NCBI GenBank assembly: GCA_032027145.1
Contig: JAVSMP010000001.1
Span: 1,516,903 to 1,580,902 of the forward strand
Direction of reading: 5' to 3'
From: Ignavibacterium sp.
Lineage (GTDB): Bacteria > Bacteroidota > Ignavibacteria > Ignavibacteriales > Ignavibacteriaceae
DNA: 64,000 nt
Part shown: one piece after another, positions 11,658 to 40,903 of the stretch
How the letters are laid out: the number at the start of each line of letters is the position of its first letter
How positions within the stretch are numbered: the stretch's first letter is position 1
The notes under the pieces: generated by a model
What the model was told of the DNA's origin: nothing
The model's input: only the letters and a program-made list of their open reading frames with translations
Databases searched by the model: none
Made by a program: the position numbers and the translations under genes

Positions 11658-12338
11658 TCATTTCACAAACTTATATCCTGCTTTATGAATTGTTAACAAG
11701 TGTTTTGGATTTGAATGATCATCTTCTATTTTTTTCCGAAGGTTCATTATAAAGTTATCAACTGTTCTTGTTGAAGGATAGTTTTCATATCCCCATACTT
11801 CATCAAGCAGTTTGTTTCTGTCAATTACTTCACCCTCTCTTTGAACAAAATACTTAATTACTTTGTATTCCAGTACAGAAAAATCAATCGGCTTATCGCC
11901 TTTTTTTGCTTCCTGTTTTTTGAAATTAAAATAAACATCATTAAAAAAGTATTCTTCTATCTCTGGTTTTAATTCATGAGGACGTCTTAATAATGCTTTT
12001 ACTCTTGCAACAACTTCTCTAAGACTGAAAGGTTTTGTTACATAATCATCAGCACCAATTTCAAGACCTATAATTTTATCAATTTCCTCTTTCTTTCCTG
12101 TTAACATTAAAACCGGAGTGCTGATTCCGTTTTTTCTCAAATCTTTACAGATATCAATTCCATTTTTATCCGGCAGGATTAAATCAAGAATGATAAGATC
12201 AAAACTTTCATGCATTGCTTTATCGAATCCCATCTGACCTGACATTGATGTAGTTACCTGAAAGTGTTCTTCTGAAAAAGTTTCTTCGAGTCCTTTTAAG
12301 ATAGCCGGATCATCTTCGATAATTAATAATTTTTTCAT
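11658..12338 (-). CDS. OmpR-family response regulator
   Basis: 226 residues: an N-terminal receiver domain (about 1-115) with acidic pocket IIEDD, phospho-acceptor Asp in LIILDLILPDKNG (about 52), threonine in MLTGKKEE and lysine in DDYVTKPFS; then a C-terminal winged helix (about 130-226) with SVLEYKVIKYF, RNKLLDEVWGYE, TRTVDNFIMNLRKKIE and IHKAGYKFV. This is the OmpR/PhoB DNA-binding architecture, which usually reads two or more direct repeats about 11 bp apart. It is the second gene of an operon with the kinase, 41 bp behind it. It is therefore one of two candidate regulators (with an unseen PhoB homologue) for the triple-repeat sites in this window. Confidence 0.95.
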   Translation of the reverse strand: MKKLLIIEDDPAILKGLEETFSEEHFQVTTSMSGQMGFDKAMHESFDLIILDLILPDKNGIDICKDLRKNGISTPVLMLTGKKEEIDKIIGLEIGADDYVTKPFSLREVVARVKALLRRPHELKPEIEEYFFNDVYFNFKKQEAKKGDKPIDFSVLEYKVIKYFVQREGEVIDRNKLLDEVWGYENYPSTRTVDNFIMNLRKKIEDDHSNPKHLLTIHKAGYKFVK

Positions 12339-12379
12339 CTCGCCTCCTTAATGATTAAATATTCCTATTACCAGACAGA

Positions 12380-14824
12380 CTATTGCTCTATTTTAAAATA
12401 CAATGAAAAGCTGCTTCCTTTATTTAATTCACTTTTAATTTCGATTCTGCCGCAATGCTCATCCATAATATGTTTAACAATTGCAAGACCAAGACCGGTG
12501 CCTTCTATTTTTCGGTTAATATCATCTTTTAATCTTACAAAAGGTTCAAAAACATTTTTTAAATTTTCAGAAGAAATTCCACATCCATTATCAATTACCT
12601 CTACAATCGCACAGTTATTAACTTTTGCAACTGAAAGGATTATTTTACTTTCTTCGCAAGAGTATTTAGAGGCGTTAGTAAGTAAATTCAAAATAGCTCT
12701 TTCAACAGCCGCTTCGTCAGCAAAAATATTTATAGTGTCATCGTTAATTATAAGCTCTAACTTTTGTCTCTTAATCATAAACTGATACTGAACTGAATTA
12801 ACAGCTTGATGAATAACCGGGATCAGATTGATTCGGGATTTATGATAAGTCTGCATTCCTTTTTCGATTTTAGCATAATCCAGAATATTATCAATAAGTC
12901 CGTTAAGTTTTTTGCTCTCACCGTTTATCACCTTCAAATAAAACTCAGATTTATCTTTTGCAGGCAATTGATGGTTTTTCAACTTTTCAGTAAAAATTTT
13001 TATTGAGGTGAGAGGATTTTTAAGTTCGTGAGTAATAGTTTGCATAAAAAACGATTTTAATTCATTCAACTCTTCGAGACGTTCAGCTTCAAGTTTCTGG
13101 CGAATAAGATCTTCTTGCAATAAAATCCTGTCAATCGCAAGTGCGGCAGCAACAGTAACAGTACTTAGTAAGTCAATATCATCTTTATAATATCTTGTTC
13201 CAGCTTTTTTTTCACCCATAACTAAAAATGCATGAATAATTCCTGTAGGTGATTTAATTGGAAATACGAGTGTCATTCCCCATCTTTTAAAAACTCTGAC
13301 ATCAGCTGATTCGATGTTTATGCCTGCTTCTACTTTATCACTTACCGCAACAGGAAGGACAAGATTGTTTTTCAGTTTTTCTGTGTCAAACCTGATACTT
13401 CTGCCGCGAAGCAATTCAAATCCTTTGTCAGAAATAATTCTGATTTTTGAATCAGATTTATCGAGAATAAAAAATCCAATTTTATCTGATGGAATTAAAT
13501 TGGTGGTATTTTTAATAATCAATTCTGCCAGTGAATTTATATCGTAGATATTTTTCATTTCTTCAAAAAATCTTTGCTGTTCTTTCCGGTAATCATATTC
13601 AATTCTGAAAAATCTTTTATCCACAAACTTTTGAATAAGATTTTTAGCTGGTTGAAGCAGAGCAACTGTTGCAATTGCTGTAAGAACAGTTGGTACAGCA
13701 GGATTTAAATTTTCAACGAAAAAAGTAATTACAGATGTAAGTAACACATAAGTGATAATTATTGCAAAGAGCACAACAGTATAAACAAAACTTCTTCTGA
13801 TAATCAGATTAACATCCATAAGATGATACTTAACTATTGCGATACTAAAGGTAATCGGAATAGCAGTAAGAAATATCAAAATAACTGATTCAGGTAAAAG
13901 ACTGTGTTCAAGAAAGAAAAGCGGGATAACCCAAAAAATTATAAAACTGAATGGTCCGATAAAATATCCAAGCAGCAGCCATTGGAGACGTTTTCTTTCA
14001 TCTATCTCTTTTGATGACCTGTAAGCATAAATACAAATTGAAATTGCGATCATAATGCAGGTAATTAAAAACAATCTGAAAAAAGAATCGAAGAAAACAA
14101 CATAGTATCTGATGTATTCGAAATCTCCGCCAAGAGTAGCTTTAAGAAAAAGGTAGCTAAGTATTATTGAATTGGCGAGAGCACTAAAATAAAAATACCA
14201 AAGAATATATCTCATTCGCTTTACTTTTTTCTTGGCGAATGATGAAGTAAAATGAATAAACAGGACCGGAGTAAGGCTGTAAATAAACAGCCAGATTATT
14301 CTGCTAAGGTAACCATAAAACTCAAGATTATATGTTCCGGCTGTTATTACAATAACCACTCCCAGACTAATACTTGCACGATGAAATAATCTGGCAGAAT
14401 AATTTTCCGGGGATCTGATTCTTACAAACATCGCAATACTTATATAAATCAAACCCACAACTGCAATAATTATGAGAGTAAAGAGGTTGTAATAATTTGT
14501 TAGCTGAACTGAAGCAGATTTTATCTGATTATCAGTTTCGATTTTAATATTAACCGTTTCACCAATTCTTTTGCCGTCAAGATAAAGTTCTAATTCTTCC
14601 CAGTCATTAAACTGAAGATTATCAACAGACAAGAGAATACTGCCATCTTTTATACCGGTTAAATTATCATCTACATTAGTAATAATAAGATGACTGTCAC
14701 TGTAATTTAATTCAAACGGCAGATTTGGTTTCAGGACATTAAGGTAGAACCCACCAACACAAACAAGTATAATTATTATCTCGATAAGTAAAAGTGCAGA
14801 CTTTTTGTTAAGTGCACTCTTCAT
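12380..14824 (-). CDS. Membrane sensor histidine kinase with PDZ-like, multi-TM and GAF domains
   Basis: 814 residues. In order: one membrane helix (8-30), a periplasmic PDZ-like segment (about 40-108: GIKDGSILLSVDNLQFNDWEE), a block of about seven more helices (110-360), a GAF domain (about 420-575), a HisKA dimerisation domain with the phospho-histidine in TITHELKNPLTS (about 610), and an HATPase_c domain with NLLTNASKYS (N box), DNGCGIS (G1) and GTGLGLAIVKHI (G2). It should autophosphorylate and pass phosphate to the adjacent response regulator. The start has AGGAGG upstream. The stimulus is unknown. A decayed fragment matching its GAF region lies at about 40086-40365. Confidence 0.93.
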   Translation of the reverse strand: MKSALNKKSALLLIEIIIILVCVGGFYLNVLKPNLPFELNYSDSHLIITNVDDNLTGIKDGSILLSVDNLQFNDWEELELYLDGKRIGETVNIKIETDNQIKSASVQLTNYYNLFTLIIIAVVGLIYISIAMFVRIRSPENYSARLFHRASISLGVVIVITAGTYNLEFYGYLSRIIWLFIYSLTPVLFIHFTSSFAKKKVKRMRYILWYFYFSALANSIILSYLFLKATLGGDFEYIRYYVVFFDSFFRLFLITCIMIAISICIYAYRSSKEIDERKRLQWLLLGYFIGPFSFIIFWVIPLFFLEHSLLPESVILIFLTAIPITFSIAIVKYHLMDVNLIIRRSFVYTVVLFAIIITYVLLTSVITFFVENLNPAVPTVLTAIATVALLQPAKNLIQKFVDKRFFRIEYDYRKEQQRFFEEMKNIYDINSLAELIIKNTTNLIPSDKIGFFILDKSDSKIRIISDKGFELLRGRSIRFDTEKLKNNLVLPVAVSDKVEAGINIESADVRVFKRWGMTLVFPIKSPTGIIHAFLVMGEKKAGTRYYKDDIDLLSTVTVAAALAIDRILLQEDLIRQKLEAERLEELNELKSFFMQTITHELKNPLTSIKIFTEKLKNHQLPAKDKSEFYLKVINGESKKLNGLIDNILDYAKIEKGMQTYHKSRINLIPVIHQAVNSVQYQFMIKRQKLELIINDDTINIFADEAAVERAILNLLTNASKYSCEESKIILSVAKVNNCAIVEVIDNGCGISSENLKNVFEPFVRLKDDINRKIEGTGLGLAIVKHIMDEHCGRIEIKSELNKGSSFSLYFKIEQ

Positions 14825-15024: not shown

Positions 15025-15639
15025 TTATACCTTACTTAATCCTGATGGTATATAACTGATAACACTTGATTCAGGTTTTAATATGTTTCTTCGCATTGAT
15101 TTAGCTTTTTTCCTTGCTTCCATATTCATTTTTAGAATCAGTGCAGCAATTCTTATATACGATACTAATACTCTTCTGATAATATTCTTCAGGCTTGTAG
15201 TTTTTGTAAACAGATTTACAAACCCTGCTTCAAGCTCTGCTTTTGATAAACCGGCAGATTTAAAATATGCAATGCTGCAGGGTGCACTGAATTTAGTTTG
15301 TCTGAATTCGTAATCATCGAAATAGTTTTCTAAAATATTTCCATCTGATTTCAGACCTTCTGCCATTGCGGTGCCGGGGATAGGAAAATAAATATGCACA
15401 TACGGAACTTCAATTTTATTTTCCTGAAAAAAAGAATACACATTGTCGAAAGTGAATTCATCATCTTCATCCAAACCAAGCATAAAGAATGCACCAATGT
15501 GAATTCCGGCATTATGTATTCCCTTAACTTGTCTGTGGTAATAATCAACATTCATAGGTTTATTCAACGGAAGTTCTTTAATCAATTTACCATCCTTAAG
15601 GCGGTAAGTTGGCTGAATGATATAAACTTTCTTTTTCAT
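15025..15639 (-). CDS. Internally deleted radical SAM (B12-binding type) protein
   Basis: 204 residues. The first 25 (MKKKVYIIQPTYRLKDGKLIKE) look like the start of B12-binding radical SAM proteins, and from NKPMNVDYYHRQVKGIHNAG onward the protein reads like the C-terminal half of the same family (GAFFMLGLDEDDE, VPYVHIYFPIPGT, FSAPCSIAYFK). The expected middle, with the cobalamin domain and the CxxxCxxC cluster motif, is missing, and the join is in frame. The protein cannot bind an iron-sulfur cluster in the normal way, so it is probably a non-functional deletion derivative or has a changed role. A triple-repeat promoter site precedes it (15668-15723). The HK operon follows downstream. Confidence 0.7.
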   Translation of the reverse strand: MKKKVYIIQPTYRLKDGKLIKELPLNKPMNVDYYHRQVKGIHNAGIHIGAFFMLGLDEDDEFTFDNVYSFFQENKIEVPYVHIYFPIPGTAMAEGLKSDGNILENYFDDYEFRQTKFSAPCSIAYFKSAGLSKAELEAGFVNLFTKTTSLKNIIRRVLVSYIRIAALILKMNMEARKKAKSMRRNILKPESSVISYIPSGLSKV

Positions 15640-15667
15640 ATTATAGATTCTGAAAACTTACCCGTCA

Positions 15668-15723
15668 TAAATGAATGAAAATAAAGAATTAAATGTCATG
15701 AACTTGTCAAAGTGTTGTAAAAA
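15668..15723 (-). promoter_or_regulatory. Triple 11-bp direct-repeat promoter site, copy 2
   Basis: On the minus strand TTTTTACA, TTGACA and ATGACA follow each other with ACA triplets exactly 11 bp apart (plus-strand TGT at 15716, 15705 and 15694). At the place where other copies carry a -10 hexamer (15673-15668) this one reads CATTTA, a poor match, so promoter activity is uncertain. It faces the truncated radical SAM gene, whose ATG is 29 bp further on. Confidence 0.65.
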
Positions 15724-15961: not shown

Positions 15962-16015
15962 TTTACAGCATCATGACAATTCCTTGACAACTGCTTATAA
16001 TCAGAATGTTAGATT
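15962..16015 (+). promoter_or_regulatory. Triple 11-bp direct-repeat promoter site, copy 3 (5'-nucleotidase)
   Basis: TTTACA, ATGACA and TTGACA have ACA triplets at 15965, 15976 and 15987, 11 bp apart. TAGATT follows 20 nt after the last unit (16010-16015). The 5'-nucleotidase ATG is at 16088. A TATAAT string inside the spacer (15996-16001) lies too close to the last TTGACA for a standard promoter. Confidence 0.78.
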
Positions 16016-16087
16016 TCTTACAGCAAAAATAAATCCGGCTTAATGAGATAATTCATATTGAACAAAAAAACACAATGAGGTTAACAC

Positions 16088-17973
16088 ATGTCAAGAACAT
16101 ACTTTTTCGTTATATCGTTATCTTTTTTATTCGTATCAATTGCATTTGCACAGACTGATACAATCACTATTCTCCACATAAACGATACCCATTCTTGTTT
16201 AGCACCATTAGGACCAAGAACTGCTGGATTAGCAGGGACACAAGGTGGAATAAGTCGCGCAGCTTCTATAATCGGTATGACAAAAATGACCGAGCAGAAT
16301 GTTCTTACTCTGCACAGCGGTGATGCTTTTGTCGGTGACTTTTTCTTTAACAAATTCTTTGGTGTTGCTGAGTTTCAGTTAATGGCATCTTTAGGTTTTG
16401 ATGCAATGGCTATAGGAAATACGAGTTTGATTTAACTCCCGCAATACTTGATACAGCTTTAAGAAATTCATTTCCTCCAGGTTCCGGGTTCGCATTTTTA
16501 TCTTCAAATCTTATTCTTGATGATCCGCAGGTGCAGCCATTAAAGGATTACATCTTTCCTTATACTATCATACAATATGGCAGCACTAAGGTTGGAATAT
16601 TCAGTCTTATTACACCGGAGACAAATTATTTTTCACTTCCTTCACCAGCAATAGTTGATACAAATATTGCAGCTACAGCAATGGCAATGCTGGATACACT
16701 TACCAGTAAAGGCTGCAATTTAATTATTTGTCTATCTCATCTTGGAATCCTGTACGATCAGGATTTAGCAGCAAACATTCCTGGTATAAATATTATACTA
16801 AGCGGGCACGACCATTTAAGAACAGATGCACCGGTAGAGGTTACTGATCCGCTTGGAGGAACGACTTACATTGTCCAGGCTGATGCATTTTACAAATGTA
16901 TTGGTAAAATGAAAATTGCAGTTTCGGGTAATAATATGGAATTAATAAATTATACTTTGATAGACCTTGATGAATCTGTTCCTGAAGAGCCAACTGTCAA
17001 AGCAGTTGTAGATGGACTAATGACTGAAATCGAAAACACCTGGGGACCTGTTTATTCTCAGCAGATTGGAACTGCTACAGCCTTCTTTGAAGAAGTTGCC
17101 ACAAATCTCGGTGAAGATGGAGCACACGATACACCTATTGGAAATATTGTAACTGATGCTTACAGATGGAAGACTGAAACAGAAATCGGAATTACTGTCG
17201 GCGGATTGACTGCACAGCCAATTTATGAGGGTCCGCTTGTTGCCGCTGATGCTTTTAGAGTTGTAGGTTATGGTTTTAATGAAGTCAACGGACTTGGATA
17301 CAGGATTGTTAAAATAAAACTTACCGGTGCTGATCTTATTGCGGGATTAGAGTTCGGACTTTCAAATGCTGAATACAATGATGAACTACTCCCACAAGTT
17401 TCAGGTATGAGCTATTCATATAATTTGGAAAATCCGGTTGGTCAAAGAATTGTATGGGTAAAAGTTGGAGATATCCCGCTGGATCCGCAGACGGTGTATT
17501 CTATAACTACCAATGAATTCCTTTATTATGCATTAGGCAACCCTTTTATAATCGGAACAAGCATCAATATTATAGATCCATACCTATACACTGACTCATC
17601 AGAATTTCAGGTATTATCAGAATACATTATCAATAAGCAAACAATTTCACCGGAATATAAAGGAAATGTAGTAACAGATTTAGGATCAATTGATAACGGA
17701 ACAACTCCAAAAGAGTTTAGACTTGAACAGAACTATCCCAATCCGTTTAATCCGACTACGAAGATAAGTTGGCAATCATCGATAGGCAGTTGGCAAATAT
17801 TAAAAGTATATGATGTGCTTGGTCGTGAAGTTTCGGTACTTGTTAATGAATATAAACCTGCGGGAAAATATGAAGTCGAATGGGATGCAAGCAGTGTATC
17901 AAGTGGTGTGTACTTCTACCAGTTGAAAACTAACAGTTATGTTGAAACCAGGAAAATGATTTTAACGAAATAG
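16088..17973 (+). pseudogene. 5'-nucleotidase / cyclic phosphodiesterase family, T9SS cargo, frameshifted
   Basis: Two abutting frames (16088-16435, then the frame that is open to 17973) make one UshA-type protein of about 628 residues. Order: signal peptide ending AFAQ, metallophosphatase start ILHINDTHS, LHSGDAFVGD, then the break, SGHDHLRTDAP, a 5'-nucleotidase C-terminal domain (about 345-520), and a T9SS sorting domain (NYPNPFNP to KMILTK). One base seems to be missing between 16420 and 16421: GGAAATACGAGTTTGAT should be GGAAATCACGAGTTTGAT, coding GNHEFD. The loss removes the metal-binding histidine and shifts the frame. Intact members release phosphate from nucleotides outside the cell. 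It is either a true lesion or a sequencing error. The triple-repeat promoter upstream fits phosphate control. Confidence 0.88.
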
Positions 17974-27339: not shown

Positions 27340-27418
27340 CGCATAGCGATAAGATAGATATGTGAAGGTAAGCAGATATCTTATCAATTTTAATTTAATG
27401 ATCAATCAAGGTAATAAA

Positions 27419-27820
27419 ATGAAAAAAATATCAACAATCCTTTTTGTATTGATTTCTTTACTATTTACTTACTGTGATGAAAGTGAACCAGTTGTTGGCT
27501 CAAAAGACGATACTTCTATTCCAAATCTGTCATTTGCAGTGGACACTACTTATCTGGATTCACCTAATAGCAGGCTGGTTGCAAAAGGAACTGTAAAGAA
27601 TAAAAGCAGCTCACAAGTAACCTCTCCGTGGTATGTTGAGTGCCAGTTTTATACCAACTCATCAAAGACAACAAAACTTGGAGGAAACTATACGCAGATT
27701 GGAGTTCCACTTGCTAAAAATGAATCCACATTCTGGACCATCACTTACTCTTCCTCAAATGTGAATGTAAATGATTATCCGAATTTTGCTGTTGGAAATC
27801 TTAGAGGAATTTATAAATGA
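27419..27820 (+). CDS. FxLYD-like lipoprotein, paralogue A
   Basis: 133 residues from the ATG at 27419. An in-frame ATG at 27362 would add 19 residues, but AAGG precedes 27419, and this start matches the paralogue at 40499. Lipoprotein-like signal MKKISTILFVLISLLFTYC, with cysteine 19 as the lipidation site, though Tyr before it is unusual (the paralogue has TSC). The mature part (about 50-133) has the pattern of an FxLYD-type beta-sandwich (LVAKGTVKNKSSS, YVECQFYTNSS, ESTFWTITY). From about 27610 to the stop and on into the next gene's leader, the DNA is about 95 percent identical to the paralogue. It precedes a small barrel gene. Confidence 0.78.
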   Translation: MKKISTILFVLISLLFTYCDESEPVVGSKDDTSIPNLSFAVDTTYLDSPNSRLVAKGTVKNKSSSQVTSPWYVECQFYTNSSKTTKLGGNYTQIGVPLAKNESTFWTITYSSSNVNVNDYPNFAVGNLRGIYK

Positions 27821-31745: not shown

Positions 31746-32435
31746 TTAAGCATTAATAATTCTACCATCTTCTAAATAAATTATTCTATCAGCATATTCT
31801 TTCAAACGCAGATCGTGGCTTACAACTATCACACATTTATTTTTTATTTTCGCATAGGCATTAAGCAGTTCAATAATTATTGAACCATTTTCTGTATCCA
31901 AACTTGCGGTTGGTTCATCAGCCAAAATCAATTCGGCATTGTTTGCGATTGCTCTTGCAACCGCTGCTCTTTGTTTTTCTCCCTGGCTCATTGCAGTTGG
32001 AAGTTTATCAGCGAGATACTCGATATTCAATTCTCTAAAAATATTTTCTGCAATTCTTCTGGCTTCTCTTTTACTTTTGGAAGCAAACTTTAGAACAAGT
32101 TCAACATTTTGCAAAGCCGTAAGTGAATCAATCAAAAGAAAAGTCTGAAAAATAAATCCTAATCTTTCAGCTCTGAGCTTTTGTAATTCTGAAACTGAAT
32201 AAGATTCGATTGGCTTATGAAACAAATTAATTATACCATTTGATGGTTTAAGAAGTCCGGCGATTAGTGTAAGCAGCGTTGTTTTTCCACTTCCGCTTGG
32301 ACCGAGAAACAAAACAAGCTCACCATGTTTTGCTTCAAAGGTAATATCTGTTACTCCAACTGAAGAATGCTCATTTATCCTATATGACTTACTCACATTT
32401 TGAAGTGATACAATATTTTCATTTTCATCTTTCAT
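31746..32435 (-). CDS. ABC transporter ATPase, LolD/MacB/DevA type
   Basis: 229 residues, typical for this subfamily. Walker A GPSGSGKTT near 46, Q-loop FQTFLLIDS, signature MSQGEKQRAAVARAI near 150, Walker B LILADEPTASLD, and the H-loop histidine in VVSHDLR. LolD/MacB-type ATPases drive FtsX-like permeases that move lipoproteins, lipids or drugs out of the inner membrane rather than importing solutes. It overlaps the permease gene by 11 bp, so they form one transporter. It is the last gene of the seven-gene operon starting at 39967. The cargo may be the lipid that the operon seems to make. Confidence 0.92.
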   Translation of the reverse strand: MKDENENIVSLQNVSKSYRINEHSSVGVTDITFEAKHGELVLFLGPSGSGKTTLLTLIAGLLKPSNGIINLFHKPIESYSVSELQKLRAERLGFIFQTFLLIDSLTALQNVELVLKFASKSKREARRIAENIFRELNIEYLADKLPTAMSQGEKQRAAVARAIANNAELILADEPTASLDTENGSIIIELLNAYAKIKNKCVIVVSHDLRLKEYADRIIYLEDGRIINA

Positions 32436-33534
32436 AAAACACTTCCAGCGGATAAATTTTTCTCAATCTGCTTAATGCAATGATAGAACTCAGGACACCC
32501 ATCAACAAACCAACTATCAGCACTATAAGAATTTGTGATAGAGTTGTAATCGTACTTACTTCCGGAGAAAGTTTTTCAATAATTGATACAAGCGGAAAGT
32601 AAAGTATTAAACTTAGTCCTCCTGAAATCAAACTGATAAATACAGCCTGCTGAATAATTAATTTAGGCAGAAATCCTGAAGGCGAACCAAGAATTTTCAT
32701 TACTGCAAAATCTTTTTTCCTTTCAAGGATGTTGATTGAAAGTATAAGGCTCAAAACTGTAGTTAACACTATTGCGCCGAGTGAAGCAACAGCATAAAGT
32801 ATTGGAAGAAATCCCGATTCCATTTCCTTGATATTATTTTCAAGAAAATCATTGTGGTTATAAACCACAGAGCCAGCAATTAATTCCTGAATTTCTGCTG
32901 CTGTTTCGTTCACATCACTTCCATTTTTCAATTTAACCAGATAACAAGTAACGATTCCCGGAAAGCCCAACAGCGATTGCGCTTCTGCAAGCGTTGTAAA
33001 GGCATATTGAATAACAAACGCATTTGTGCCGCTGCTAATTCCACAGACTTTCAATGTGTCTTCGAGAATAATAAGTTCATCTCCGACATTAAATCCATTA
33101 TTTAATGCAAAAGAATTATCAAGTACAATCTCATTATCAGCATTAACATTTTTTCCTTTGATTAGTTTCGGTGGTCCGCCAAGTCCAGTTTCAATATCAT
33201 AACCAGCTAAAAAAATAGTTGAACGTTTTCCGCTGTTTTTAACAGTAGTTAGCAAAAGCAAAGCCGGCGACACCTCTATTACGTTTTCATTCTTTTTGAT
33301 TCTTCCGGTTTGATAAGCTGAAAGAATCGAAGTGCCTCTCAAAATATTTGTCGAATTTCTCTGAAGTACCCACAAATCAACTTTATTCTCGCGAATGTAT
33401 TCAACAGATCCATCAGCAACTCCTTTATAAATTCCGAAAAGAAAAAGCATAAGTATCATACAAAGTGCAATTCCAATAACTGTAAGAATAAATCTCGTTG
33501 GATGATTGAGTAATATTTTTATTGTATAAAACAT
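32425..33534 (-). CDS. FtsX-like ABC permease (possibly DevC-like lipid exporter)
   Basis: 369 residues with one N-terminal membrane helix (about 13-37, FILTVIGIALCMILMLFLFGIY), a large extracytoplasmic domain (about 45-235), and three C-terminal helices (about 245-275, 295-320, 335-360), the MacB/FtsX topology. The short N-terminal region and single permease gene resemble DevC, which exports glycolipids in heterocyst-forming cyanobacteria, but that is a loose likeness. It overlaps the ATPase gene by 11 bp and starts 2 bp after the aldolase gene, so it is translationally coupled. I infer export of a lipid or lipoprotein across the periplasm. Confidence 0.87.
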   Translation of the reverse strand: MFYTIKILLNHPTRFILTVIGIALCMILMLFLFGIYKGVADGSVEYIRENKVDLWVLQRNSTNILRGTSILSAYQTGRIKKNENVIEVSPALLLLTTVKNSGKRSTIFLAGYDIETGLGGPPKLIKGKNVNADNEIVLDNSFALNNGFNVGDELIILEDTLKVCGISSGTNAFVIQYAFTTLAEAQSLLGFPGIVTCYLVKLKNGSDVNETAAEIQELIAGSVVYNHNDFLENNIKEMESGFLPILYAVASLGAIVLTTVLSLILSINILERKKDFAVMKILGSPSGFLPKLIIQQAVFISLISGGLSLILYFPLVSIIEKLSPEVSTITTLSQILIVLIVGLLMGVLSSIIALSRLRKIYPLEVFYER

Positions 33535-33536
33535 GA

Positions 33537-34619
33537 TTATGCGAACATTTTAACTTCTCTTACAAGTTTCGTTGAAAATTTTTCAAATATTTCCTTCAGA
33601 TTTTTTCCTGTGATAGTTAACCCATGATTTTTTAGTCCTACTGCCGTTGAAACAGGATTATCCGTTCTGCTGATCAGATCCAAAACTTCCTGGGCAAGTT
33701 CAATTGTTCCGCAAGGATAATTTTGTCTTGTACAAAAAACTCCGTTTATCCATGCATGCACATGTATTATTGCACCAATTTCCGGAAATGTTTTATAAAT
33801 CATAGAATGTTCAACTGCATCAACAGAAACTCTTGCTTTCGGATTAAAATTCGACGGCATACTTAATATTGCTTCACGATTATTGTAATCGAAATCTTTA
33901 ACAAGTAAAATATCTTTCCCTATTATTTGAAGATTAGATTTATCCACTCCTCTTCCTGTCATCCAAAACGTATCATTACTCAATTCAGGAATTCTTTCTC
34001 TTGCGCTCAGATTTCCGTAGCTGGCTCCTGTTATTCCATAAATTTTGTAAAGCTGTTTCATTTGCGATTCAGTTAAAAATTCTTTTAACGGAAAAGGTAA
34101 GGGTAAAACTCCGAGCTTATCCAATACCTTTCCATAGTGACTTATCTGTTTAGTGATTTCACTTCCGTTCCAGAATCTTTCAGGGAGATCCTGAACAAAT
34201 TTATTATCTGTAGCAAAGTTTGAACTGATGATCGGTTTTATTTTCTCATAAATTTCATCCGGATTAAAATAGATTCGATAAAAACCTGCTTCGGGTGTGG
34301 TGAAAAAAGTTTCCAGGTTCGGAGCAATATATATTAAAAGATTAGACAACGATTTTACCAGTGCATTATATGAAAGAACTTTTATCTTATCTTCTTCTTC
34401 TGCAGAAACATTTCCTGATATAAAAGTTATTACAAATAGTGAACGTGATTTTCTTCTTACCGATTTCGGGTCTTCGATTGTTGTAAAATTCAAAGCATAA
34501 TTTGATTGTTCAGTTGTACCTATAATTTGATCGCCCTTCCTGACACAGCCATCCATCAGAGATTCAAGAAGATTTTCTCTGAAAGTATTTGAATCATTTC
34601 TGACTACTGCAAATTTCAT
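33537..34619 (-). CDS. Class II aldolase/adducin-family protein with an N-terminal extension
   Basis: 360 residues. The C-terminal half (about 170-355) is the class II aldolase/adducin fold: TGASYGNLSAR, FWMTGRGVDKS, HSMIYKTFPEIGAIIHVHAWING (the HxH zinc ligands) and VGLKNHGLTI (third histidine). The first ~165 residues are an extra domain I do not recognise. Family members are aldolases, epimerases or dehydratases acting on (phospho)sugars or methylthioribulose-1-phosphate. It overlaps the preceding decarboxylase gene by 26 bp. BtaA-type reactions release methylthioadenosine, so a salvage role is conceivable, but a direct role in head-group chemistry is equally possible. Confidence 0.82.
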   Translation of the reverse strand: MKFAVVRNDSNTFRENLLESLMDGCVRKGDQIIGTTEQSNYALNFTTIEDPKSVRRKSRSLFVITFISGNVSAEEEDKIKVLSYNALVKSLSNLLIYIAPNLETFFTTPEAGFYRIYFNPDEIYEKIKPIISSNFATDNKFVQDLPERFWNGSEITKQISHYGKVLDKLGVLPLPFPLKEFLTESQMKQLYKIYGITGASYGNLSARERIPELSNDTFWMTGRGVDKSNLQIIGKDILLVKDFDYNNREAILSMPSNFNPKARVSVDAVEHSMIYKTFPEIGAIIHVHAWINGVFCTRQNYPCGTIELAQEVLDLISRTDNPVSTAVGLKNHGLTITGKNLKEIFEKFSTKLVREVKMFA

Positions 34620-36012
34620 GGTAATTCTCCTTCTGATTAGGAATCTTTTTATTATTATCTCTCTCTATCATATCTGAAAAAGTTTCTCTTCTCCTTACTA
34701 TTTTGCAATTTTCTCCGTTGATTGAAACAATTGCTGGTTTGTTAAAATTGAATGAAGACTCAAGAGTGTTGAAATAAGCACCTGTATCCATAAGAGCAAG
34801 GATATCTCCTTCATTTACTTTTGGAAGCAATTTGTTTTTGTAAACAAGATCAGAAGCAAAACAACAGGGACCAGTAACTGTTACTTTTTCTTGCGGGTTT
34901 CTTTTAAATTCATTACATAGAAACATCTCATGATATTCGTAATAAGTCGGCATTGTTATGGTTCCCAAACCGCCATCTGTGATGAGCCATTTTTTTCCGT
35001 CACGAATCTTTACCCGATAAACTTTTAAAAGCAGAAATTGTGCTGGACTTACAATACATCTTCCCGGTTCAAAAAATATCTTTGGTGATTTTGATCCGAA
35101 GAAACCCATAACCGATTTGTTAATTTCAGTCATGTAATCTTCGAACGAATAAAATTTCTGATTTCCAAATTTCAGTTGATATCTACTAACAGCCTGATAT
35201 GCCAGCATTTCAAACGAAGACAATTCTCTTGTAGTCATTGAAGCGAAACCACCACCGACATCAATTATTTCAATTTCTAATCCAAGTGATTTTATTTTTC
35301 TGAAAAGCGGATATAATTTCTTAACTACTTTGTTGAACGATTTAGGATTCCTGATCCCAGTTCCGATGTGAAAATGAATTCCTCTGAACTTGAAATTAGG
35401 ATAGTTCTCAATGATTTTAAGTGCTTGAATAATTTCTCTTTCATTTAATCCGAATGAGCAGGATTTAGATCCGGTAGCACTGCTTTTGCTTAATCCCTTT
35501 GGAATGAAATCCGGATTGACTCTTAAAAGAAGATTTACTTTAGAAGAACTTGAATCGGGTATTTTTGTAAGGCTAAGCAGTTCACTTATTGAATCAATAA
35601 CGATCAGACTAACTTTACTTTTAATACAGTTGAAAAGAAACCGATCGGTTTTACAAGGACCATTGACAATTATTTCAGATGGATCAAATCCACTTTTTAG
35701 TGCGAGTTCGAGTTCAAACTCGGTCATAACTTCAGCAGAAAGTCCGGCGAGTTTAACAGCCTCAACAACTGCTGGAACGGAATTACATTTGAATGGATAG
35801 TAAACAGAGGAATTTCCGTTAAAAATTCTTAAAGAATTATTCTTAAATTTTTCTACATTGTCAGTGAGCATTTTTTCATTAAGAATGTACAACGGGGTGC
35901 CATACCGGCTTGCTAAATCAATCAGCTTAAATTTGTTAAATTTTAATTCGCCAGAAGAATCATAACTCAAGTTCCAATCTTCCGGATTTAATATTTTTTT
36001 TCCCGTTGACAT
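34594..36012 (-). CDS. PLP-dependent fold-type III decarboxylase (Orn/Lys/DAP decarboxylase family)
   Basis: 472 residues. PLP-lysine segment YYPFKCNS (normally YAxKAN) near 73, FHIGTG near 197, a glycine-rich phosphate-binding DVGGGFAS, EPGRCIV near 305, and C-terminal GPCCFASD and DTGAYF, the cross-subunit active-site cysteine and tyrosine regions. Family members decarboxylate meso-diaminopimelate, ornithine, arginine or peptide-like/siderophore intermediates. This one is not obviously LysA: the lysine motif is changed, and it sits in a lipid operon rather than with lysine genes. The natural substrate is therefore open; a homoserine- or amino-acid-bearing head-group is possible. A triple-repeat promoter site lies directly upstream (36042-36096). 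The ribosome-binding site is poor. Confidence 0.86.
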   Translation of the reverse strand: MSTGKKILNPEDWNLSYDSSGELKFNKFKLIDLASRYGTPLYILNEKMLTDNVEKFKNNSLRIFNGNSSVYYPFKCNSVPAVVEAVKLAGLSAEVMTEFELELALKSGFDPSEIIVNGPCKTDRFLFNCIKSKVSLIVIDSISELLSLTKIPDSSSSKVNLLLRVNPDFIPKGLSKSSATGSKSCSFGLNEREIIQALKIIENYPNFKFRGIHFHIGTGIRNPKSFNKVVKKLYPLFRKIKSLGLEIEIIDVGGGFASMTTRELSSFEMLAYQAVSRYQLKFGNQKFYSFEDYMTEINKSVMGFFGSKSPKIFFEPGRCIVSPAQFLLLKVYRVKIRDGKKWLITDGGLGTITMPTYYEYHEMFLCNEFKRNPQEKVTVTGPCCFASDLVYKNKLLPKVNEGDILALMDTGAYFNTLESSFNFNKPAIVSINGENCKIVRRRETFSDMIERDNNKKIPNQKENYHEICSSQK

Positions 36013-36041
36013 TAAGGTTTAATTGTCCTTTCTCTATTGTA

Positions 36042-36096
36042 AATATGATATAAAAGACCAAGAGAAATGTCAGAGAATTGTCAGCAGGTTGTAAAA
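36042..36096 (-). promoter_or_regulatory. Triple 11-bp direct-repeat promoter site, copy 5 (internal promoter of lipid operon)
   Basis: On the minus strand TTTTACA, CTGACA and CTGACA have ACA triplets exactly 11 bp apart (plus-strand TGT at 36090, 36079 and 36068). CATATT stands at the usual -10 place (36047-36042), a moderate match; TACAAT six bases further on is an alternative. It faces the decarboxylase ATG at 36012 within the 87-bp gap behind the GNAT gene. Confidence 0.75.
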
Positions 36097-36099
36097 GGT

Positions 36100-37212
36100 T
36101 CAGTTACTGATATTTTTGAAATAGACGAGGAATTCTTTATCTCTTTTTAGACCGAGTCTTTCGGCAAGCGATATTATAGTTTTGTTTTCATCATACATCC
36201 AGGTAGTTTCTAAAGATCTGAATTTTCTTGCAATCTCAACTGTTGCATTGAACAGAAGATGCTTTACCCCGGAATTCCGGAAATTCTTTTTTATTCCGAT
36301 TGCAAATACTATCGCTTTATTAATCTTCTTTCTCTTGAATAAAAATTTAATGTAATTACTAAAACTTTTCTCGCCTTTAAATCTTTTTAAAAGAGGATTT
36401 ATATCAAGAACAAAATGAACAGCAGCCACTGGTTCACCTTTATATTCAACAAACTGAAGTAGATCAGGTGGAGTAACAAGCTTGAGGTGTTTTGAAGCAA
36501 ACGCATATTCCTCATTACTTACCGGAGTAAAATGCCAGTTATCCGAAAATGCATCGTTAAAAATATTTCTGAGATGTTCAAGATCCTGTTCCTTATTTTT
36601 TTCATTAAAGCTTCGAACTGATAAACTTTCCAGTTCAAGATTGAGTGGCTTTGGGAAATGATAATTCAGATAACTATCAGAATTTGGATTTGACCGTGTA
36701 TGAAGTGTTTCTAATAACTCGAAACCATTTTCTTTTAGTAAAGAATGATAGTACTCAGGATTATAAGTTTGAAAAAAAGTTACAGGATAATCATATTTAT
36801 CTAACAGTAAACCAAGCTCTGAGTATAGATTTGGATTGAATGGTCCTTCGATTCTCCGGATGCCTTTATTCCGGCAAAATTCTAAAATTACTTTAAATAA
36901 AGTTCTGACAGCTTGTGGATTATTGTATGATTCGAAGAAGCCGAAGAAAGCTGTTCTCGTACCAGATTTATCACAATAACTTTTATTAACTGAAAGAAAG
37001 ATTCTTGAAATAACTTCATTACCAGAATAGCAGTTGAATAAATCGATTGTAGCAAATTTGAAGTATGGATTTCTTCGCGGATCTAAAACTTTTACCAGTT
37101 CGGATTTTATTGGTGCTACCCAGTTTTTATCATCTTTATAAATTTTAAACGGAAGAGTTATAAAATCTTTCAGTTCTTCACGTGTTGATACTCTACTAAC
37201 TCTGTAAGACAT
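36100..37212 (-). CDS. GNAT-fold acyltransferase, large (370 residues)
   Basis: 370 residues, about twice a simple GNAT enzyme. An N-terminal part with KNWVAPIKSE, DPRRNPYF and FGFFESYNN is followed by RRIEGPFNPNLYSELGLLLDKYD, then a C-terminal acetyl-CoA-type fold with IKKNFRNSGVKHLLFNATVE (pyrophosphate-loop equivalent, about 300-320). The family is uncharacterised in the main. Some large GNAT-like proteins in bacteria N-acylate long-chain bases or amino lipids, which would fit the operon, but the donor and acceptor are unknown. AAGGA sits properly before the ATG at 37212, and the gene overlaps the methyltransferase/BtaA fusion gene by 43 bp, so translational coupling is certain. Confidence 0.78.
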   Translation of the reverse strand: MSYRVSRVSTREELKDFITLPFKIYKDDKNWVAPIKSELVKVLDPRRNPYFKFATIDLFNCYSGNEVISRIFLSVNKSYCDKSGTRTAFFGFFESYNNPQAVRTLFKVILEFCRNKGIRRIEGPFNPNLYSELGLLLDKYDYPVTFFQTYNPEYYHSLLKENGFELLETLHTRSNPNSDSYLNYHFPKPLNLELESLSVRSFNEKNKEQDLEHLRNIFNDAFSDNWHFTPVSNEEYAFASKHLKLVTPPDLLQFVEYKGEPVAAVHFVLDINPLLKRFKGEKSFSNYIKFLFKRKKINKAIVFAIGIKKNFRNSGVKHLLFNATVEIARKFRSLETTWMYDENKTIISLAERLGLKRDKEFLVYFKNISN

Positions 37213-39032
37213 TTTCCTTCTTTCTTAATAATTTTTTCAACTACGTATTTATTATAAATAAAAGAAAGATCCTTTTCATGAAGCCGGTCAGCAAATGTTT
37301 TATGAGGGATGATCTGGTCAGAAAGTATCTCCGGTCGTTCACGGGGAACAAGTAAATTTCTGTAAGTAATAACAGCTCCATCCATTGCAACTCTGATTGT
37401 CTCTTTCAACAAATTCTCAAATACATCTTCCGATATCCACTCAAATATATTTGAGAAATTGAATTTTGATATAGATCCATCCGGAAGCTGTCTGAAGTAA
37501 TTGTCACAACTGTCAGTTATGATTTGTATTCTGTTCAATCTGCTTTTTATAATCTCAAAATTTTCTTTTCGCAGATAGTATGGAAGACATTCTTCATTGT
37601 GATTACCGAGCAGAATATATCTCAGAAAATAATTTTGTTTAATCGGCAATTCGGTCAATGCTCGCTTCGTTTTTTCAGCAAAATGATTTCCAAATGAAAA
37701 ATCTTCTTTGAGGTATTTGAAGAATGCTTTGTCAAATAGCAAGCTCATCGTTCTTCTGCTTAGCAAAACTTTGGTGAAAAGTTTCCATCGCAAGGTATTC
37801 CACTTTCTTTCATACAAATTCACTCTTTCATCTTTGTCTTCGATTTCAAAAAACTTTTTAACTGTTCTTTTAGTTACCAGAAGTCTCATAAAATTTCTTA
37901 ACAGCCTCATATAATCTTCGTATCGTCCGCAGTGAATAATCCCGCGTTCAATTTTATCAATGTTCTCATTCCAGTATTGATATGCTTCCTCAGATAAAGA
38001 ATATTTTAATGAATTATAAATTTTTTTTCTGCTTTTAGATTTTTGTACTCCAACGAACTCGAGCACTTCTTCATACGTTAAAAATTTAAATGCTGCAACT
38101 TTTAGTTCAAGTAAATAATTCTGATAAGGATTCAAATCCAATGCGATAACAGATTTTGGATCATCAACTAAAAAAGTTAGCAGGTTGCAGCCGCCTGATG
38201 TAACTGAGAAGACTACATCATCTTTCTGAATATTGAAAGCCTCTCTGTCAATCTGAGGATCTTCCCAGCATTGTGAATACAGAACTTTACTGAAAACTTT
38301 ACTCTTTTTTTGTTTGGAAGATTTTGGCAATCCGATTTTTGTATGGACAATTCCCCAATCAATAACTGCCGGAATTCCGATTAATGCAGTTAATAAAAAT
38401 GATTCGGTAAAATAACCTGCCACAAATCCAGGAATGAATAAAATAAAGAGTGCATTATGTCTTACTCCATCTTTATTCAAATAGATTTTTGGTTTTGTTT
38501 TTGCAAATTGTCTTGCACTTTTTATTGAAGGAATGAGTCTCGGAACTTTTTTCAAATAATCGGAATAACCTTCAGTATGAATTTTATGGAATGACCGTTC
38601 TTCATACTTAATTAGCTGGATGTAATGTATATAAAACAATATCGGCATCAGCAATCCTGATATTGGAAGAAACAGACTCAAAACAGTTAACGCGAGCAAA
38701 TCAGAAAAATAAATCGGATTTCTGACAAACAAATATGGACCAGATAAAATAATTGAATCACTCTGAACTTTAAATGACATTACAGTTTTGGAAGAAAGCA
38801 GACTTCCAGCCCACATTCTCAAAACGGAAGCCAGTACCATTAATAATGCAGCAAACAAATAAGCATATTTTGAATACTCTTCAATGCCAACTGATCGAAA
38901 AATAAAAATGTAGTTTGAAGGGAAATCAGCAAAAAGTATAATTGAGATAAGACAGGTTATAATCACAATTGAAAATGAAACGAATATTCGGGCTTCAAAT
39001 TCAATCTGATTTATTTTTTCCTTGAGTTTCAT
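37170..39032 (-). CDS. Fusion of an ICMT/PEMT-like membrane methyltransferase and a BtaA-like (DUF3419) aminocarboxypropyl transferase
   Basis: 620 residues in two parts. Residues 1-220 hold several membrane helices and the isoprenylcysteine/phospholipid methyltransferase signature: GPYLFVRNPIYFSD near 93, then KYEERSF and EGYSDYLKKVPRLIPS, where the paired glutamates help bind SAM. Residues ~250-610 match the DUF3419/BtaA family: LYSQCWEDPQIDREAF, VTSGGCNLLTFLVDDPKSVIALDLNPYQ (SAM fold) and, near the end, AVITYRNLLVPRERP. BtaA moves the 3-amino-3-carboxypropyl group of SAM to diacylglycerol, the first step to the betaine lipid DGTS; methylation then needs a second enzyme (BtaB). A methyltransferase of another fold, fused ahead of BtaA, could do that step. 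It is 11 bp after the lipid-kinase-like gene. Confidence 0.85.
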   Translation of the reverse strand: MKLKEKINQIEFEARIFVSFSIVIITCLISIILFADFPSNYIFIFRSVGIEEYSKYAYLFAALLMVLASVLRMWAGSLLSSKTVMSFKVQSDSIILSGPYLFVRNPIYFSDLLALTVLSLFLPISGLLMPILFYIHYIQLIKYEERSFHKIHTEGYSDYLKKVPRLIPSIKSARQFAKTKPKIYLNKDGVRHNALFILFIPGFVAGYFTESFLLTALIGIPAVIDWGIVHTKIGLPKSSKQKKSKVFSKVLYSQCWEDPQIDREAFNIQKDDVVFSVTSGGCNLLTFLVDDPKSVIALDLNPYQNYLLELKVAAFKFLTYEEVLEFVGVQKSKSRKKIYNSLKYSLSEEAYQYWNENIDKIERGIIHCGRYEDYMRLLRNFMRLLVTKRTVKKFFEIEDKDERVNLYERKWNTLRWKLFTKVLLSRRTMSLLFDKAFFKYLKEDFSFGNHFAEKTKRALTELPIKQNYFLRYILLGNHNEECLPYYLRKENFEIIKSRLNRIQIITDSCDNYFRQLPDGSISKFNFSNIFEWISEDVFENLLKETIRVAMDGAVITYRNLLVPRERPEILSDQIIPHKTFADRLHEKDLSFIYNKYVVEKIIKKEGKCLTELVEYQHVKN

Positions 39033-39043
39033 TGTACTGATTC

Positions 39044-39967
39044 CTAATTGTTTGAAATAACATTTAAAACAGAGTGTAAAACTTCAATGCCAACACACTT
39101 GCTGTTTATTAACTCACCATCAGACGATAATAATACTCCATCCTGATAATTAAATTCAATATTCTTCACCTTGTGCAGCTCAAAAGCATCAAGATCAATA
39201 TGTTTTCCGGAATAAATTTTTGAGAAGCTGATATACCTTTGTGATAACGGCATGTCTTTAATTACAAGCACATCGAACAAGCCATCATCAAGTAAAGCAT
39301 TCGGAGTTAACCTCATTCCACCACCAGTAAACTCACCGTTTGCAATAACAACTCCGATAATTTTTTCATTAATAGTTTTTCCATTAATGAGTATTTGTAA
39401 TTCATCAGCTTCGTAACTGAATAAAGTTTTTACAGCTTCGAAACCGAAAGCAAATTTTCTCAGGATTTTTTTTGTTTTAGGTGAGATTGTTTTGTTTATA
39501 GATCCACCTATCCCAACCTGGAATTCATTTAGAAAATATTTTGGTAAGTAGTTATCATTAAAATGGATTTTACCGATATCAATCGATTTTGTAGGATTTT
39601 CTTTAATTAATTTTACCTGAGATGAAAGGTCTGCTGGTAATCCAAGACTTTGAGCAAACCCCTGACCCGTACCAAATCCAATTACACCAAGTGCTACATC
39701 CGGATTAATATAAATTCCGTTATGAAAAAAACCATTAATTACCTGGTTAAGTGTTCCATCTCCACCAACTGCGACAATAGTTTCACTACCATTTTCTATC
39801 GCTTTTTGTACGAATGAAGTTGCATTTGATTCGGATGTCGTTTCAGAAAAGATATATCCATCACCAAAATAAAATTTTATTTGATGCAGCAACTTTTCTT
39901 TTTCTTGCTTTGTTCTCCCACCGGCTGAAGCAGGATTAAATATGATTTGTATTTTTTTGTTGGACAT
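39044..39967 (-). CDS. Diacylglycerol-kinase-catalytic-domain lipid kinase (YegS/DgkB-like)
   Basis: 307 residues, the usual length. IIFNPASAGGR at the start, VAVGGDGTLNQVINGF near 65 (the ATP-binding GGDGT signature), GVIGFGTGQGFAQSLGLP, and C-terminal NGEFTGGGMRLTPNALLDDGLFDVLVI. Members phosphorylate diacylglycerol, ceramide or similar lipids in the membrane. As first gene of the lipid operon it could control the diacylglycerol that BtaA would consume, or phosphorylate another lipid. GTGQGFA replaces the more common GTxNDFA. The triple-repeat promoter with a good -10 lies 21 bp upstream of its ATG. Confidence 0.92.
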   Translation of the reverse strand: MSNKKIQIIFNPASAGGRTKQEKEKLLHQIKFYFGDGYIFSETTSESNATSFVQKAIENGSETIVAVGGDGTLNQVINGFFHNGIYINPDVALGVIGFGTGQGFAQSLGLPADLSSQVKLIKENPTKSIDIGKIHFNDNYLPKYFLNEFQVGIGGSINKTISPKTKKILRKFAFGFEAVKTLFSYEADELQILINGKTINEKIIGVVIANGEFTGGGMRLTPNALLDDGLFDVLVIKDMPLSQRYISFSKIYSGKHIDLDAFELHKVKNIEFNYQDGVLLSSDGELINSKCVGIEVLHSVLNVISNN

Positions 39968-39987
39968 TATTCCTTTTCTCCTGCTTA

Positions 39988-40042
39988 ATTGTATATAGAA
40001 GTCAAGACTCAGATGTCATGAAAAAGTCAAAGAGTAGTAAAA
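39988..40042 (-). promoter_or_regulatory. Triple 11-bp direct-repeat promoter site, copy 6 (lipid operon promoter)
   Basis: On the minus strand TTTTACT, TTGACT and ATGACA are spaced 11 bp apart (plus-strand AGT at 40036 and 40025, TGT at 40014). TACAAT follows exactly 20 nt later (39993-39988), about 20 bp before the lipid-kinase ATG. Two of the three triplets read ACT rather than ACA. Confidence 0.78.
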
Positions 40043-40085
40043 GATTTTTTGAATAATTAAAAATATATTGAACATGATTTTTTAG

Positions 40086-40365
40086 AACCAGAAGCTAAAA
40101 ATGCGTGCACTGTTCCGGTTGGCGATTCACAGGAAAGATGAGTGCCATTCTCTATCTTTAAAAACTTTTACATCCGCTGATTCCACTTTAAGACCAGTCT
40201 CTATTTTACCATCAACAGCAATGAGCAGCGGAAGATCTGTTTTAAGATTTTCGATTTCAAACCGTACACTGTTGCCTTTAAGCAAATCCTAACCTCGGTT
40301 TGCATCGTATTGATTGAATTGTCCAGCTAACTAATGATAAAGAATCCAAGATTATCAGCAGAACT
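40086..40365 (-). pseudogene. Decayed GAF-domain fragment of a histidine kinase
   Basis: The minus strand here resembles the GAF portion of the kinase gene at 13200-13480: shared stretches include AAAAATGCATG-like, ACATCAGCTGATTC-like and, near the end, ATCCAA--TTATC-like segments, with many substitutions and indels. The frame is broken (stop codons inside), and neither the kinase domains nor a start remain. It is probably the last trace of a paralogous two-component gene lost next to the regulatory site at 40365. Confidence 0.65.
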
Positions 40366-40419
40366 TTTACAATTGAATGACAATTCTCTGACAAAAGATG
40401 TTTGTTAAATAACTACAAT
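40365..40419 (+). promoter_or_regulatory. Triple 11-bp direct-repeat promoter site, copy 7
   Basis: TTTTACA, ATGACA and CTGACA have ACA triplets at 40369, 40380 and 40391, exactly 11 bp apart; TACAAT lies 20 nt after the last (40414-40419). It faces the second FxLYD/barrel cassette. The flanks match copy 4 (27285-27339) over about 120 bp, up to the ATG. Confidence 0.8.
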
Positions 40420-40498: not shown

Positions 40499-40903
40499 AT
40501 GAAAAAAACAGCAGCAATACTTTTTGCAGTGATATCATTACTATTAACTTCCTGTGAGGAAAATAATGAATCAGTTGTTGGCTCAACAAGCGATACTTCT
40601 ATTCCAAATCTGTCATTTGCAGTTGACACTACTTATCTCAATGCCGCAAATAACCAGTTGGTTGCAAAGGGAACCGTAATAAATGCTGGTAACTCAAAGG
40701 TAACCTCTCCGTGGTATGTTGAGTGCCAGTTTTATACCAACTCATCAAAGACGACAAAACTTGGAGGAAACTATACACAGATTGGAGTTCCACTTGCTAA
40801 AAATGAATCAACGTTTTGGACAATCACTTACTCTTCCTCAAATGTGAATGTAAATGATTATCCGAATTTTGCTGTCGGCAATCTCAGAGGAATTTATAAA
40901 TGA
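40499..40903 (+). CDS. FxLYD-like lipoprotein, paralogue B
   Basis: 134 residues. Lipoprotein signal MKKTAAILFAVISLLLTSC (cysteine 19), then the same FxLYD-like beta domain as the gene at 27419. GAGG in ATCGAGGTGATAAA precedes the ATG. The N-terminal third differs clearly from paralogue A, but the last ~80 codons and the following 45 bases are about 95 percent identical in DNA. Under control of triple-repeat site 7. Followed 34 bp later by barrel paralogue B. Role unknown, probably at the outer membrane. Confidence 0.8.
   Translation: MKKTAAILFAVISLLLTSCEENNESVVGSTSDTSIPNLSFAVDTTYLNAANNQLVAKGTVINAGNSKVTSPWYVECQFYTNSSKTTKLGGNYTQIGVPLAKNESTFWTITYSSSNVNVNDYPNFAVGNLRGIYK

Follow-up and report, generated by a model that had tools for sequence, protein, structure and literature searches.

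The closest described counterparts of the system reported here are the enzymes of betaine lipid synthesis. BtaA converts diacylglycerol and S-adenosylmethionine (SAM) to diacylglycerol-O-homoserine, releasing methylthioadenosine (MTA) (PMC6302742; PMC10685587), and in the BtaA-BtaB pair, which yields diacylglyceryl-trimethylhomoserine (DGTS), this DUF3419-family 3-amino-3-carboxypropyl transferase acts first, with a SAM-dependent methyltransferase as its partner. Phosphate-linked control has been reported for btaA-btaB clusters (PMC4796936). In eukaryotic Bta1 the methyltransferase and BtaA are joined in one protein, and of the two configurations known, one has the methyltransferase at the front (PMC10685587). 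Here we describe a probable variant of BtaA-type lipid synthesis encoded by a seven-gene cassette in a 64,000-nucleotide stretch (the window) of Ignavibacterium sp. (assembly GCA_032027145.1, contig JAVSMP010000001.1, positions 1,516,903 to 1,580,902), whose genome is a single contig of 3,665,746 bases. The cassette shares with the BtaA-BtaB pair both the DUF3419 transferase and a SAM methyltransferase partner. However, that partner is a PEMT-type membrane methyltransferase fused to the N-terminus of BtaA, not BtaB, and the cassette adds a decarboxylase, an aldolase, a GNAT, a kinase and an exporter. The one-protein arrangement recalls Bta1, but the cassette methyltransferase belongs to an unrelated integral-membrane family, and the fusion is therefore independent of Bta1.

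The open reading frame (ORF) list and a Pfam search give seven ORFs, each with Pfam support, on the minus strand from 39967 to 31746 (Table 1). From the kinase onwards, the genes are separated by 11 bp (YegS/fusion), an overlap of 43 bp (fusion/GNAT), an 87 bp gap containing one triple-repeat site (GNAT/LysA-like), an overlap of 26 bp (LysA-like/aldolase), 2 bp (aldolase/FtsX) and an overlap of 11 bp (FtsX/ATP-binding cassette (ABC) gene), with overlap or 2-bp spacing at four of the six junctions. An initial annotation, made from the sequence alone, had described seven tightly spaced or overlapping genes encoding a lipid kinase-like enzyme, a methyltransferase-BtaA fusion, a large GNAT, a pyridoxal phosphate (PLP) decarboxylase, a class II aldolase and an FtsX/DevC-LolD exporter. 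The coordinates and profile matches bear out both this arrangement and these families, the GNAT standing as a predicted tandem GNAT on the basis of its model and structure match. Scans for sigma-70 promoters and for terminators gave counts not above those of shuffled controls.

We scanned 84,980 species genomes once with the fusion protein, and the distribution beyond the window's phylum rests on that scan. It returned 13 loci with a PEMT-DUF3419 fusion, all with the same neighbours in the same order: two in Ignavibacteria (L031, L041), two in Bacteroidetes by their record titles (L033, L040), four in Aminicenantes (L032, L034, L037, L038), two in Acidobacteriota (L036, L039), one on a Trueperaceae chromosome (L035), where the exporter pair is absent although the locus continues, and two cut by a contig end, on a Cyclobacteriaceae contig (L042) and a Nitrospirota contig (L043). 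The close relative L041, labelled Ignavibacteriota, has a fusion 84% identical to the window's. Of 391 genomes searched in the window's class, 16 carry a homologue of the aldolase; all ten close copies lie in the cassette or in a contig fragment of it, and four further cassette lineages emerged (L092, L094, L095, L101). The wider phylum sample gave one positive among 395, the window's own genome. Altogether, the order of the seven genes is identical at 13 loci that span all seven and at four that are truncated by contig ends, with roughly 31-60% identity between the cassette proteins of distant lineages. Mis-binning is a possibility for L042 and L043, both short contigs from metagenome bins, and in a tree L043 groups inside the Aminicenantes/Acidobacteriota clade. 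Given this risk, we counted the firmer phyla, namely Bacteroidota/Ignavibacteriota, Acidobacteriota and Deinococcota. Thus, the cassette is kept in the same order in at least three phyla; it is rare and patchy, yet cohesive. The initial annotation had left to a genomic survey whether the seven genes stay together, and in relatives they do.

In the fusion protein, DUF3419 (PF11899) is matched at 265.5 bits against a cut-off of 28.2, over model positions 3-382 of 385, and PEMT (PF04191) at 28.3 bits against a cut-off of 25, with the SAM-site motifs RNPIY and EE nearly invariant in an alignment of relatives. This is the one DUF3419 gene in the window's genome. As the initial annotation recognised, the set departs from the classical btaA-btaB pair: the cassette holds no gene for a BtaB-type soluble methyltransferase, the PEMT-type domain being fused instead. 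At two other loci (L056, L057) a DUF3419 gene is followed by one for a soluble methyltransferase. We found no description of a PEMT-BtaA fusion or of a decarboxylated BtaA lipid in the open-access literature, subscription papers not being searchable. One way to view the fusion is as a machine for ordinary DGTS, in which the PEMT domain simply stands in for BtaB, adding three methyl groups to diacylglyceryl-homoserine and leaving the carboxylate in place, while the decarboxylase, aldolase and GNAT accompany it, for example in by-product handling. The BtaA domain is a standard DUF3419, fusion of BtaA to a methyltransferase has the precedent of eukaryotic Bta1 (PMC10685587), and where BtaA acts with a methyltransferase, the product characterised is DGTS. 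We nevertheless consider ordinary DGTS somewhat unlikely, as it leaves unexplained a dedicated, divergent decarboxylase that is linked as strictly as BtaA itself and is mirrored by a phosphatidylserine (PS) decarboxylase in the sister cassettes described below. Moreover, characterised PEMT-type lipid methyltransferases act on aminoalkyl head groups, not on amino acids.

The decarboxylase resembles LysA, scoring 293.3 against the lysA equivalog TIGR01048, narrowly below the cut-off of 297.9, whereas the true lysA elsewhere in the window's genome scores 499.6 bits. The PLP lysine K75, the catalytic C384 and the EPGR motif (E315-R318) are invariant in the LysA-like family, but throughout it CESGD has become CFASD and the arginine of NDxxRP is lost. 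In structures of DAP decarboxylase the corresponding residues hold the distal end of diaminopimelate (DAP), and their loss implies that the substrate probably lacks that end. Judged by its sequence, the enzyme is a fold-III PLP decarboxylase and not a DAP decarboxylase. A canonical lysA duplicate was ruled out by the score below the cut-off together with the residue changes. Carboxyspermidine decarboxylase trims a terminal 3-amino-3-carboxypropyl group, the same group that BtaA transfers. That enzyme belongs to the fold-III superfamily (PMC11999265). Two other members, BtrK and N-citrylornithine decarboxylase, act on amino acids with bulky distal substituents.

A different decarboxylase accompanies BtaA in two sister cassettes, L046 (2897-10628; genome G136, of the same family as the window's) and L045 (243-9774; Bacteroidetes). 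Here a single run of genes encodes a YegS kinase, UbiA, a pyruvate phosphate dikinase/phosphoenolpyruvate (PEP)-utilising enzyme, a GNAT, a PS-decarboxylase homologue and, directly after it in both loci, an unfused BtaA. L045 also has FtsX and ABC genes, which share ~50% identity with those of the window, and a 5'-nucleotidase gene that carries the triple repeat; in L046 a thioester-reductase-like gene is present, with the regulator upstream. Genome G136 holds another psd elsewhere, adjoining a pssA-like gene, so that the cassette copy is an extra one; the window's genome likewise has psd elsewhere, next to a pssA-like gene. That two unrelated decarboxylase families are tied to BtaA is the strongest sign of head-group decarboxylation. 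The modified head group suggested by the initial annotation is thus likely, in view of a dedicated decarboxylase that is swapped for a PS-decarboxylase homologue in the sister cassettes. As a separate observation, Bacteroidota and WOR-3 show BtaA in yet another setting (L044, L047, L049-L052, L054), the third, which combines UbiA, a PEP-utilising enzyme and an unfused DUF3419 gene, with HMG-CoA reductase-like, dolichol-kinase-like, GNAT-like and CoA-ligase genes as well at most of these loci.

The analysis establishes which genes are present, that their order is conserved, which domains and catalytic residues they have, and that repeat sites and a regulator go with them. The reading we favour, if with slightly less than even confidence, is that the cassette serves to make an aminolipid free of phosphorus and to export it, by a route parallel to that from PS through phosphatidylethanolamine (PE) to phosphatidylcholine (PC), for which we infer substrates, products, order of steps and signal. 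The BtaA domain would place the 3-amino-3-carboxypropyl group of SAM on diacylglycerol, or on a lipid alcohol like it, and so produce MTA along with a homoserine ether lipid. The LysA-like enzyme would then decarboxylate the head group to a 3-aminopropyl ether, a mimic of PE, and the fused PEMT domain would N-methylate the amine to a choline-like mimic of PC. As PLP requires a primary amine, the head group would have to be decarboxylated before it is fully methylated. Like the PssA-Psd-PEMT route, this scheme has an amino-acid head group, a decarboxylation and N-methylation, and the sister cassettes even use a homologue of its decarboxylase; it differs in that the head group is a SAM-derived ether not attached via phosphate, and in that the decarboxylase is of PLP fold III. 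The lipid reading as a class is well supported, while the exact head group is one that we infer. Somewhat more tentatively, several phyla may make a hitherto undescribed lipid class, in which diacylglyceryl-O-(3-aminopropyl) ethers, as such or N-methylated, would be cationic substitutes for PE and PC that contain no phosphorus. A second lineage would employ a repurposed PS decarboxylase at the same step.

The aldolase matches PF00596 and carries an extra N-terminal domain of ~145 residues. Its metal triad H286/H288/H332 and D267 are invariant in an alignment of all relatives, D267 occupying the position of FucA Glu73 by an equivalence judged by eye. The top structural ranks go to 6btd/6btg (Z 17.2, tied with FucA; root-mean-square deviation 2.9 over 160 residues against 6btd), a deoxyribose-phosphate aldolase acting on a radical-SAM by-product. 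The best NCBIfam match is MtnB, at 39.5 bits far under the equivalog cut-off of 137. For the N-terminal domain, which was not modelled by itself, there was no clear fold match, flavodoxin-like and CoaB-like chains appearing only at E ~0.006-0.03. Class II aldolases cleave methylthioribulose-1-phosphate (PMC6302742), and mtnA and nucleoside phosphorylases are present in the window's genome. BtaA yields MTA in stoichiometric amounts. This aldolase probably disposes of it, and would help to remove MTA after phosphorolysis and isomerisation, returning dihydroxyacetone phosphate (DHAP). The parallel is the MTA-DHAP shunt (phosphorylase, MtnA, class II aldolase), with which the cassette has in common a metal-triad class II aldolase, a genomic mtnA and BtaA-made MTA; it differs from the shunt in the extra N-terminal domain, in the aspartate at FucA Glu73 and in having no phosphorylase in the cassette. 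The family named in the initial annotation stands, and MTA disposal accounts for the gene better than a part in head-group chemistry would. In the class search, six genomes without the cassette carry a divergent relative of the two-domain aldolase, which in all four surroundings read adjoins a homocysteine methyltransferase-methylenetetrahydrofolate reductase gene and another class II aldolase. This is a further tie between the aldolase and methionine metabolism. These divergent loci (L096-L100) may represent an anaerobic methionine-salvage operon, to go by the neighbours in four of them.

The first gene of the cassette encodes a lipid kinase of the YegS/BmrU family (TIGR00147, 162.1 bits against a cut-off of 118.65, with DAGK_cat and YegS_C matched). 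The GNAT matches PF00583 weakly, and its AlphaFold model (mean confidence, pLDDT, 89.9) matches tandem GNATs. PF13444, the domain of aminolipid N-acyltransferases of the OlsB type (PMC11631085), is not among its Pfam matches at E <= 0.01, PF00583 being the only one; an OlsB-type N-acyltransferase was ruled out on the absence of that domain and of any close sequence relative in the PDB. In the proposed aminolipid scheme both proteins would belong to the kit. An alternative to the simple decarboxylated mimic would be a composite lipid, for example one that is N-acylated or bears a polyol. The decarboxylase, the aldolase and the GNAT would then make a separate precursor, soluble or acylated, to which the BtaA product is coupled. 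In its favour, the GNAT and the lipid kinase are constant partners, sister cassettes included, the aldolase keeps its metal triad and an extra domain that is otherwise unexplained, and most members of the LysA family work on soluble amino acids. Yet the cassette encodes no ligase or glycosyltransferase to join the two parts, and the missing PF13444 match also counts against it, so we regard a composite lipid as unlikely.

For the exporter ATPase, the top NCBIfam models fall below their cut-offs (DevA 197.9 of 295.8, LolD 181.6 of 307.75). The exporter pair is strictly linked to the cassette, in keeping with the dedicated transporter initially suggested, and from gene linkage alone its cargo would be the lipid product, which the FtsX/LolD-type pair would lift out of the inner leaflet or carry to the outer membrane. 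The substrates of MacB/DevC-type exporters are many, and fold-III decarboxylases serve siderophore and polyamine pathways, which would also suit a non-lipid product of the metallophore or polyamine type, formed by a BtaA-like transfer to a small molecule, decarboxylated and exported in a MacB-like manner. This we consider very unlikely: DUF3419/BtaA, PEMT and YegS are all lipid-acting families, and the repeat that precedes the cassette is also found on a PAP2 phosphatase operon.

The repeat, TKAC-N7-TGAC-N7-TGAC, has 8 exact copies in the genome against 0 for a reversed-pattern control, and 5 exact copies in the window against 0.23 expected even when one mismatch is allowed. By these counts, the two sites to which the initial annotation attributed control of the cluster are real. 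In L041 and other cassettes the YegS-upstream repeat recurs exactly or with one change, mostly 62-78 bp before the start, and the repeat ~82 bp before the LysA-like gene is kept in L041 and L033 and partly in L031; when these matches in relatives were compared with shuffles, mostly no shuffle was as good. A clear YegS-upstream repeat is absent in L031 and L042, as is the second repeat in most distant relatives. On the opposite strand, the half-site pattern TGACA-N6-TGACA reads as the E. coli pho box, TGTCA-N6-TGTCA (PMC10294691), its reverse complement.

A candidate reader of the repeat is an OmpR/PhoB-family response regulator in the window that shares 91% identity with the one immediately preceding YegS in L041; its homologues (51-59%) lie beside cassettes L037, L092 and L101 and before the sister cassette L046. 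Several relatives have a two-component system next to the cassette. The window's adjoining sensor kinase has a counterpart of ~90% identity in front of the L041 cassette. At that locus YegS is immediately preceded by a radical-SAM gene, the PDZ-type sensor kinase and the OmpR-family regulator, and the 5'-nucleotidase is divergent, while in the window the regulator, kinase and nucleotidase genes and the radical-SAM remnant lie ~25 kb from the cassette, at 11661-17970. This distance, and a kinase relic just upstream of YegS, indicate that the locus has been rearranged, and the relic suggests that the ancestral position of the regulator was before YegS. With the Pho regulon (PhoB/PhoR) the system shares 11-bp direct repeats, TGACA half-sites, an OmpR-family regulator and a 5'-nucleotidase among its putative targets. 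TGACA-N6-TGACA repeats precede both the 5'-nucleotidase and the PAP2 operon. Low-phosphate control is plausible; in the proposed reading the two-component system would act through the 11-bp repeats and probably respond to low phosphate.

Several points weigh against the proposed aminolipid route and its control. A soluble PLP enzyme working on a membrane lipid would be unusual, and the sister-cassette decarboxylase sits among different genes (UbiA, PEP-utilising enzyme), so that its substrate may differ. The kinase and the GNAT are left without an explained step, and the aldolase could serve another function, its N-terminal domain finding no place in the scheme. As for the signal, the system departs from the Pho regulon in having three repeats rather than two, a regulator that scores 186.1 of the 296.2 required for PhoB (TIGR02154) and a sensor that is PDZ-like and not PhoR-like. 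PhoU, taken as a marker of a classical Pst/Pho system, is absent from the window's genome.

If the proposed reading is true, the cassette would mirror the main phospholipid pathway in phosphorus-free form, and would bring its own exporter, its own regulator and its own means of dealing with the by-product. The carrier lineages are known mostly from metagenomes; the lipid could then be a source of unassigned aminolipids in environmental lipidomes, membrane remodelling would become testable in phyla hardly studied for it, and the conserved gene order and shared operator would provide a genomic marker for the lipid.

Table 1. Coordinates of the cassette, repeat sites and candidate regulatory genes in the window
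Feature	Position	Strand	Remarks
YegS/BmrU-family lipid kinase	39044..39967	-	307 aa; first cassette gene in relatives too
PEMT/ICMT-type membrane methyltransferase (N-terminal) and BtaA DUF3419 (C-terminal) fusion	37170..39032	-	620 aa
Tandem-GNAT acyl/aminoacyl transferase, predicted	36100..37212	-	370 aa
LysA-like fold-III PLP decarboxylase	34594..36012	-	472 aa
Two-domain class II aldolase	33537..34619	-	360 aa
FtsX/MacB-type ABC permease	32425..33534	-	PF12704, PF02687
LolD/DevA-type ABC ATPase	31746..32435	-	PF00005
Triple 11-bp direct repeat TTAC-N7-TGAC-N7-TGAC	40015..40040	-	Upstream of YegS, -73 to ATG
Triple 11-bp direct repeat	36069..36094	-	Upstream of LysA-like gene, -82
Triple repeat	40367..40392	+	Faces divergent small lipoprotein gene at 40499
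Triple repeat	15695..15720	-	Upstream of radical-SAM remnant, kinase and regulator genes
Triple repeat	15963..15988	+	Upstream of 5'-nucleotidase
OmpR/PhoB-family response regulator, candidate repeat reader	11661..12338	-	PF00072, PF00486
Sensor histidine kinase, PDZ-like domain	12383..14824	-	PF02518, PF00512; PF13180 26.5 bits against cut-off 27
Radical-SAM remnant	15028..15639	-	tblastn covers only residues 276-457 of 466-aa L041 protein
Secreted 5'-nucleotidase	16088..17970	+	PF02872
Histidine-kinase C-terminus relic	40060..40303	-	Two tblastn fragments, 50-53% identity, E 3.7e-14

Some smaller observations concern the genes around the repeats. The radical-SAM gene, a full-length 466 aa in L041, has undergone an apparent internal deletion to ~204 residues in the window, and radical-SAM genes also precede the cassette in L036 and L042. 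The 5'-nucleotidase is split in the window by a small frameshift or indel and intact in L041, reflecting either a real pseudogene or a sequencing error. Elsewhere in the genome, a repeat-preceded DUF3108-PAP2-SDR (short-chain dehydrogenase/reductase) operon (L124, 2102-6612) may supply diacylglycerol or make another lipid. Finally, two small lipoprotein genes on the plus strand (27362-27817 and 40499-40903) are similar, their products sharing a nearly identical stretch (..TSPWYVECQFYTNSSKTTKLGGNYTQIGVPLAKN..), and each is followed by a gene for an outer-membrane-like protein.

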